Shown piece after piece: positions 6,698-24,458 of a stretch of DNA of 27,669 bases; position 1 is the stretch's first letter, and every line of letters begins with the position of its first letter. Source of the stretch: a virus. The notes below the pieces were generated by a model that worked only from the letters and a program-made list of their open reading frames with translations, ran no database searches and was not told the DNA's origin. The stretch spans positions 1-27,669 of the IMG/VR virus record IMGVR_UViG_3300003690_000075; one strand, written 5' to 3'. A program made the translations under genes and the position numbers.

Positions 6698-6731
6698 AAA
6701 ACCCCCGGGCTGGGCCTCGCCGGGGGTTTTC
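6698..6731 (+). terminator. Rho-independent terminator after the portal gene
   Basis: AAAACCCCCGG (6698-6708) pairs perfectly with CCGGGGGTTTT (6720-6730): 11 bp, with an 11-nt loop. The A-tract and T-tract flank the GC core, so it could work in both directions. It lies about 70 nt downstream of the portal stop. Confidence 0.85.
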
Positions 6732-6787: not shown

Positions 6788-6861
6788 AGCGGGTGAGCGA
6801 GACAGTAACGCGCTGGGCTCATAATCCTGAGAACTGGGTGCAACTCCCAGGCCCGCGACCA
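6788..6861 (+). tRNA. tRNA with CAU anticodon (Met or initiator-like), slightly degenerate
   Basis: A 74-nt cloverleaf with encoded CCA (6859-6861). The acceptor stem is 6788-6794 with 6851-6857: five Watson-Crick pairs plus a G-U, with the first pair A-G unpaired. The D-stem has three pairs. The anticodon stem is 6813-6817 with 6825-6829 (one U-U mismatch) and the loop is CTCATAA with CAT at 6820-6822. The T-stem is perfect (CTGGG with CCCAG) and the T-loop is TGCAACT, where the usual second T is G. The GGG/UCC anticodon stem and an unpaired 1:72 position resemble initiator tRNAs, but tRNA-Ile with a modified CAU anticodon is also possible. It sits about ten bases downstream of the promoter at 6744. 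Confidence 0.65.
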
Positions 6862-23048: not shown

Positions 23049-23252
23049 GTGAGTGATCCCAGTTCATCAATAATGGAGAAAAAACGATACGAGCAATTAC
23101 ACGAGATCCTGGCGATCCGCATACTACCGGAGCTGCGAGAGATCAGGCGACGACAGGCCGTGTTAGTCGCGGTTGTTTGGATAGGCCAGGCCAGCCTGCT
23201 GGCTGGCATGGTGGTGATATTGGGACTCATAGGGGTGTTAATTGGCAGATAA
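23049..23252 (+). CDS. Small membrane protein (possible lysis-related)
   Basis: A 67-residue product. GTG 23049 is the track start; ATG 23073 is internal and neither has a clear ribosome binding site. The promoter at 23031 predicts a transcript starting about 3 nt before GTG, so leaderless translation is possible. Residues 9-37 are a charged helix (KKRYEQLHEILAIRIL), followed by one long or two short transmembrane segments (VAVVWIGQASLLAGMVVILG). It opens a cluster of small membrane proteins after the tail genes, where lysis genes usually lie. Confidence 0.65.
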   Translation: MSDPSSSIMEKKRYEQLHEILAIRILPELREIRRRQAVLVAVVWIGQASLLAGMVVILGLIGVLIGR

Positions 23253-23538
23253 TCTGAATCCTGAACAGGAGGTGCCAAACCACGGGAGTCGGAGAAACGG
23301 CAAAGAGTCAGTCACTTTGAGCGGACGTGAGTTGATTCAGCTAGTTATTTTCACTCCCGTGGTTTGACCTGCCTTCACATGGCTGTTCCTCGCTGCGCGG
23401 ATAATATGGTCTGCGTCCAGCAACCCCGAAACCCTGGATAATATTGAAGGACTCCTGACGGCACTCGCAGTGATAACTATACCTGTGAGCGCAGGTTTGG
23501 GTAAGATCTTTGAGAGCGTCAAGGGTGACAAGGAATGA
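23242..23538 (+). pseudogene. Holin-like small membrane protein interrupted by an in-frame TGA
   Basis: TTG 23242 overlaps the previous stop. The frame reads MADNLNPEQEVPNHGSRR, later GRELIQLVIFTPVV, then TGA (23365-23367), and goes on in the same frame PAFTWLFLAARIIWSASSN, ETLDNIEGLLTALAVITIPV, ending at TGA 23536-23538, which overlaps the next ATG (ATGA). The joined 98-residue protein has two transmembrane helices and the charged ends of a holin-like protein; the TGA falls inside the first helix. The second half has no usable start of its own. Possible causes are nonsense mutation, sequencing error or read-through (UGA followed by C is a leaky context). The 3' arm of a 14-bp inverted repeat ends in the TGA. 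Confidence 0.65.
23276..23366 (+). repeat. Perfect 14-bp inverted repeat around a 63-nt spacer
   Basis: CAAACCACGGGAGT (23276-23289) and ACTCCCGTGGTTTG (23353-23366) are exact reverse complements. The right arm ends two bases into the in-frame TGA. Both arms lie inside the holin-like frame. Confidence 0.85.
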
Positions 23539-24458
23539 AGAAAATTAAGGTCGTAATCAAAGAGCGAGAAATCAGATTCCCCAGGATACCGTTTCTCGGT
23601 ATCACGTTGCCGTTGAACCTGGCGTTCAGGCTGCCGACGCTTCAAGGTCTCAGCTTCGCGGGCAATACTAAGGCAATGATTGCCTTGACGATGCTCGTGT
23701 CTGTGGCAGTTATCTCAGGGGCAGTATATTTCGCCATCAAGGGCATATCTCCGGCTCCTATCTGGCCCCAGAGCGCCCGCTATGATGCAACGGTGGCCCA
23801 GAGCCTCGGCCAGGAACAGATAGGTGTCGGCACCGAAATACCGGACGATGTTCAGACGGCCACGATGACCCTGGAGCTAATGATAGGCTCGGCCCGTATC
23901 GAGAGTATTGAGTTTTCTGACATGTCCATCGGCAAGGCCAGTGGCCTGACGGACGCCATCAACATCAGTTCATCCAGCGGGAATATCCTCTGCGAGACCC
24001 TGCTGCTGGAGGACGTCGAGGCAACGGATTTCACCCTCGCAACAAGCACGGCCTATGCGCTGACAGTCTCCACAACCACAGCCGACGGCCTCTCCATCAA
24101 CCCCACTCTATCGAGTGACCCCGTACAGTATTCCTTCGGTGGCACTCGTGGCGCATTAAGTGTCCCGGCGGTAAGCGGTGGCACGTTTGACAGGATTTTG
24201 ATTTCATCAGCCGCAACGTCCACCGTCGGCCTTATCAGTTTCAAGCGGGTGAAGGCATATGGCAGCGGTATCACCATTTCAGGCATACAGTGCGGGGAGA
24301 TTATCATTCGGGGGACGGCTGTGGGTGAGAGCATCTACGGGGATGGGACGGGGATAAATTCTGCGAGCTTCAAGATTGGCGGCTCCGGTGTTGGGACAGT
24401 CAAGGTCCAGTCGAGTACGCTCATAGGGAACGTCGAGCGTCCTGTGAGCGTGAAGTAG
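23535..24458 (+). CDS. Membrane-anchored beta-rich protein of unknown function
   Basis: A 307-residue product; ATG 23535 overlaps the stop of the holin-like frame. A basic N-terminal 42 residues (MKKIKVVIKEREIRFPRIPF) precede one transmembrane helix at about 47-68 (AMIALTMLVSVAVISGAVYF). The remaining 230 residues are Ser/Thr/Ile/Gly-rich repeated strands (IESIEFSDMSIGKASG, ITISGIQCGEIIIRGTAVGE, SFKIGGSGVGTVKVQSST) that look like a beta-solenoid outside the membrane. I know no lysis protein like it. A surface protein made in the infected cell or a spanin-like envelope factor are guesses. Confidence 0.75.
   Translation: MKKIKVVIKEREIRFPRIPFLGITLPLNLAFRLPTLQGLSFAGNTKAMIALTMLVSVAVISGAVYFAIKGISPAPIWPQSARYDATVAQSLGQEQIGVGTEIPDDVQTATMTLELMIGSARIESIEFSDMSIGKASGLTDAINISSSSGNILCETLLLEDVEATDFTLATSTAYALTVSTTTADGLSINPTLSSDPVQYSFGGTRGALSVPAVSGGTFDRILISSAATSTVGLISFKRVKAYGSGITISGIQCGEIIIRGTAVGESIYGDGTGINSASFKIGGSGVGTVKVQSSTLIGNVERPVSVK

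Follow-up and report, generated by a model that had tools for sequence, protein, structure and literature searches.

An insertion-borne in-frame UGA in a small membrane-protein gene of three viral contigs and its probable low-level read-through

To our knowledge, recoding in tailed phages mostly takes the form of frameshifting, next to a single case of bypassing and the reassignment of a stop codon across whole genomes. In the RNA phage Qbeta, a UGA ends a complete and functional coat protein. Leakage at this in-frame UGA yields both a short and an extended product of the same phage gene, and Qbeta is cited as the earliest example of in-frame stop read-through (PMC8310308). In the bypassing of T4 gene 60, an insertion in the gene, a stop right after the take-off codon and a 5' RNA stem-loop occur together, and in-frame stop-hopping has been shown in E. 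coli for synthetic constructs, while no case is known from nature (PMC5009743). Lastly, for the recoded stops of phage lytic genes, it has been proposed that an in-gene stop limits expression (Borges et al. 2022, as cited in PMC9523058).

The gene considered here lies in a viral stretch of 27,669 nt (IMG/VR record IMGVR_UViG_3300003690_000075, hereafter the window) and resembles each of these systems in part. Like the Qbeta coat gene, it holds an in-frame UGA that could give two products if leaky, but this UGA lies inside a transmembrane (TM) helix, was gained by insertion and is preceded by a 5' hairpin. As in T4 gene 60, the stop directly follows a would-be take-off codon and an insertion and a 5' stem-loop are present, whereas the gap would be 9 nt instead of 50 nt, the frame is kept, and a matched landing codon is missing in two of the three carriers of the insertion. 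In contrast to the recoding of lytic genes, as far as that work is described in the citing source, no suppressor tRNA was found, one gene is affected and UGA is otherwise a normal stop. The features are as follows:

23242-23538, + strand: two-TM small membrane-protein gene of 98 codons, with a TTG start assigned from the N-termini of relatives
23270-23371, + strand: long predicted RNA hairpin (window MFE), from an SD-like AGGAGGT to the inserted ACCT
23276-23289, + strand: left arm of a perfect inverted repeat and RNA stem, intact in L001 and with two G-U pairs in L002
23353-23366, + strand: right arm of the repeat, whose last two bases are the T and G of the TGA; all three carriers have ACTCCCGTGGTTTGACC unchanged
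23365-23367, + strand: in-frame UGA followed by CC, from sequence and translation
23365-23373, + strand: 9-nt insertion TGACCTGCC bearing the in-frame TGA (TGACCCGCC in L001, TGACCTGTC in L002), absent from all other relatives examined
23374-23535, + strand: downstream half, comprising the rest of TM1, the loop and TM2, under purifying selection in the TGA carriers
23536-23538, + strand: terminal UGA stop of the gene, overlapping the next ATG (ATGA at 23535-23538)
23535-24458, + strand: next gene, encoding a 307-aa membrane-anchored protein with relatives in 113 loci examined

An earlier note, made from this one sequence, had described a frame that is open on both sides of the TGA and overlaps the next gene by ATGA, and coordinates and translation agree with it on both points. 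The two TM segments that it assigned to the joined product were likewise found as hydrophobic segments, which AlphaFold models as two helices with modest confidence (pLDDT 75, pTM 0.37). Its statement that no start codon lies near the TGA also holds, as ATG, GTG and TTG are absent in frame for 34 codons downstream in the window, where CTG is the sole NTG type and first occurs at codon 6. This codon reads CTG/TTG/CTG across the three carriers and is the first in-frame NTG, weak as a start. The name holin and the timed lysis that went with it did not gain support, since family and fold searches (Pfam, PHROG, Foldseek) returned no match and no endolysin was recognised on inspection by eye of the neighbouring ORFs in five relatives; as such, "holin" is a guess from size and topology. 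The adjoining 307-aa protein is conserved, with no function assigned; in one relative (L031), an ORF of similar size sits before the two-TM gene, not after it.

The comparison with relatives indicates that the TGA arrived with a 9-nt insertion, a fact beyond the reach of the single sequence available before. The insertion has the consensus TGACC[T/C]G[C/T]C, stands between GTGGTT and TTCAC, and occurs in the window and in two further IMG/VR contigs, L001 (3300009602_000261) and L002 (3300025286_000049), hence in 3 of about 61 distinct site sequences compared. The remainder read ...TPVV-FTWLFLAAR... unbroken, or more generally ...P-x-x-(one residue)-[TV]-W-L..., with neither stop nor extra codons. 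Relatives of the read-through product were found at 42 IMG/VR loci and, with a profile searched against that collection, at a largely overlapping 80; pattern scans for further carriers returned L001 and L002 alone, and the 17-mer ACTCCCGTGGTTTGACC also occurs in L125, but by chance in an unrelated sequence. The alignment of related phages that the earlier note had proposed as a check confines the insertion to three carriers and leaves the gene uninterrupted in the other site sequences examined. Among the carriers, the insert has diverged at 2 of its 9 positions (one synonymous change, one Ala/Val), its TGA, frame and length are kept, and no other lesion is present in any of them. Since three separate contigs share the 9-nt insertion, the stop cannot be put down to a sequencing error or a simple nonsense mutation. 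With the downstream half strongly constrained in all three as well, the plain alternative raised before, a mutation or an assembly error, is largely removed. Beyond IMG/VR, the INPHARED phages gave no match to the gene and bacterial genome contigs gave one (L124), a contig of 18.7 kb from a Halobacteriovorax MAG, which says little about the host because it equals the viral contig IMGVR_UViG_2788500220_000003 in length and is probably identical to it.

Over the 47 codons after the insert, pairs of carriers differ by 19-24.5 synonymous and 3-8 nonsynonymous changes, corresponding to dS 0.94-1.72, dN 0.03-0.08 and dN/dS 0.03-0.05, and neutrality of the downstream half is rejected in the carrier comparisons with P of 6e-9 or less. 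This constraint equals that between the TGA-free relatives and begins directly after the insert, so that a retained stop is flanked on both sides by a constrained in-frame reading, in three carriers only. Given such a ratio at dS of about 1-1.7, the second half is, by this codon-level evidence, almost certainly still translated in frame.

The perfect 14-bp inverted repeat that had been seen to run into the TGA is also confirmed, with 14 of 14 positions complementary and both arms where they had been placed. No other perfect arm of at least 14 nt with a loop not exceeding 100 nt occurs in the window, where first-order Markov sequences give an expectation of 0.015. Beyond what the earlier note could see, the repeat closes an RNA hairpin of roughly 90 nt in which the two arms and all that lies between them form a single long fold, at a predicted folding energy of -53 kcal/mol for a 131-nt segment. 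Fold z values are -4.5 for the window, -6.3 for L001 and -3.7 for L002, against -3.3 and -2.2 for L003 and L004, the two nearest TGA-free relatives; under a synonymous-codon control (background z -0.05 +/- 1.18), they are -2.7, -4.1 and -1.9 against -1.0 and -0.7. Much of the stability of the hairpin therefore stems from the protein sequence, and in the three carriers, not in L003 or L004, the hairpin is more stable than expected from synonymous codon choice. Folded to a consensus, the three carriers have 31 lower-stem pairs in common and show two compensatory changes, with a weak covariation shuffle control (55/500), and mutation simulation from the window gives P values for hairpin conservation of 0.11 (L001) and 0.015 (L002). 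Tiny P values from pair-level resampling were discarded as circular, because the structure came from the same sequences; the MFE-based synonymous control and the mutation simulation are the fair controls. A near-perfect SD-like AAGGAGGTG (CAGGAGGTG in the window) lies within the coding region at 23266-23274, not suitably spaced from any start codon, and is present in L001, L002 and the TGA-free L003 and L004 alike.

Hairpins can arise, and also be preserved, through template switching (PMC8794818), and by our reading the insert looks like its left flank in reverse complement, with a small gap. Structure alone is consequently not proof of function, and the repeat may be a stimulator of recoding or the mere scar of a template-switch mutation. 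One such event could have perfected the repeat and added the bases at its foot, which would explain the origin of the arrangement but not the coding constraint kept beyond the stop.

Outside this site, UGA behaves as an ordinary stop, terminating 8 of the 27 window ORFs taken as genes and the two-TM gene itself. Among genes with aligned relatives, which many window genes lack, no other in-frame stop was found in the sense frame; many apparent stops in the survey came from antisense or wrong-frame queries, for example at L044 9047, where a 1099-aa ORF runs on the other strand. Rfam detected no suppressor tRNA in the three carrier records, which may be incomplete, and with neither such a tRNA nor other interrupted genes among those alignable, the pattern of a reassigned TGA is not present. 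No SECIS family matched in Rfam scans of the region and the whole window, giving no sign of Sec insertion. Rfam gave no tRNA for the other two carrier records, and the only one that it found in the window is a tRNA-like gene with anticodon CAU at 6788-6858 on the + strand (RF00005, 35.4 bits, gathering 29), located shortly after a 776-aa ORF and behind a terminator-like hairpin around 6700-6728; ARAGORN missed it, giving no tRNA for the window and none for L044 and L045.

Several other explanations of the TGA have to be weighed. The carriers are not cleanly grouped in trees, which require a minimum of 2-3 changes of state, and the downstream half of L001 together with its next gene is nearest to the TGA-free L003, as is the upstream half of L002. 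These trees and mosaics suggest, on sequence grounds, that alleles with and without the TGA have recombined, and some of the purifying selection could then date from the time that the downstream half spent in TGA-free genomes. One could hence imagine that the insert disables a dispensable gene and spreads by recombination. From our point of view this is unlikely, as the insert has diverged about as much as its flanks with frame and length kept, no carrier shows a further lesion, and the AU test does not reject a single clade of carriers (p 0.38 for the whole gene, 0.13 downstream, 0.12 upstream). As a separate observation, L002 has 200 nt ahead of the gene (upstream of 5001) that are wholly unlike those of the window, L001, L003 and L004, which suggests an exchange of modules around the gene pair. 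Phages with recoded stops do exist, TGA to Trp included (PMC9523058), and the two-TM gene might be the sole visible target of a suppressor tRNA or alternative code of virus or host; the ordinary use of TGA as a stop in the window, the lack of other interrupted genes among alignable ones and the detection, in records that may be incomplete, of no tRNA but the one with anticodon CAU make this very unlikely.

Two further possibilities concern the site itself, where -1 and +1 frameshifts, read from the sequence, run into early stops. Translation might end at the UGA with a short peptide and restart at the weak in-frame codon six positions on (CTG/TTG/CTG), perhaps with the strong SD-like AGGAGGTG at the hairpin base. 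We consider such a restart quite unlikely: CTG is a poor start with no adjacent SD and is simply the conserved Leu codon of the family, half of TM1 would be dropped, and the preceding FTW codons stay conserved. Because the predicted fold has the SD-like sequence base-paired, bridging across the hairpin to the restart codon was rejected. Alternatively, peptidyl-tRNA-Val could leave GTT, skip TGACCTGCC and land just before TTC, restoring the ancestral ...VVFTW..., assisted by a 5' hairpin refolding behind the ribosome in the manner of the T4 gene 60 stem-loop. The gap would equal exactly the inserted bases, the stop directly follows the take-off codon and the hairpin is immediately 5'. However, the landing codon in the window and L001 is GCC, with which tRNA-Val would not pair, and the right arm would lie within the ribosome while the UGA is in the A site; only L002 offers a Val codon, GTC, at the landing place to match GTT. 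A natural stop-hop would be new, and we regard it as highly improbable.

Low-level read-through of the UGA is, in our view, the best explanation of the shared insert and the constrained downstream half, with a probability of roughly 0.6. That part of the earlier proposal stands, whereas neither its timing nor a function for the short product is supported. A 9-nt insertion, possibly from template switching at a quasi-palindrome, would have put the in-frame UGA into the first TM helix. Most ribosomes would then halt there and release only the N-terminal part, a peptide of about 41 residues, and a minority would decode the UGA, with near-cognate tRNA-Trp probably inserting Trp, aided by the UGA-C context. 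The product would be a full-length protein whose TM1 is longer by three residues (X-Pro-Ala/Val), and the net effect an attenuated, presumably beneficial, low dose of the membrane protein. Known stimulators of read-through usually lie 3' of the stop, while the predicted hairpin lies 5'. That this hairpin, reforming behind the ribosome, drives the recoding, be it read-through or a natural in-frame stop-hop, and makes the insertion-acquired UGA a dosage valve is a doubtful proposition that we put forward tentatively. The rate of read-through would depend on the host: UGA read-through was about 12% in one E. coli reporter and 0.04-0.08% in two Pseudomonas species, about 150-270-fold apart (PMC9481147).

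Overall, the close relatives without the insert provide natural plus/minus pairs for reporter comparison, including the role of a 5' hairpin in stop recoding. If read-through holds true, a single conserved insertion-borne UGA with constrained codons beyond it would represent a simple throttle on a membrane protein.
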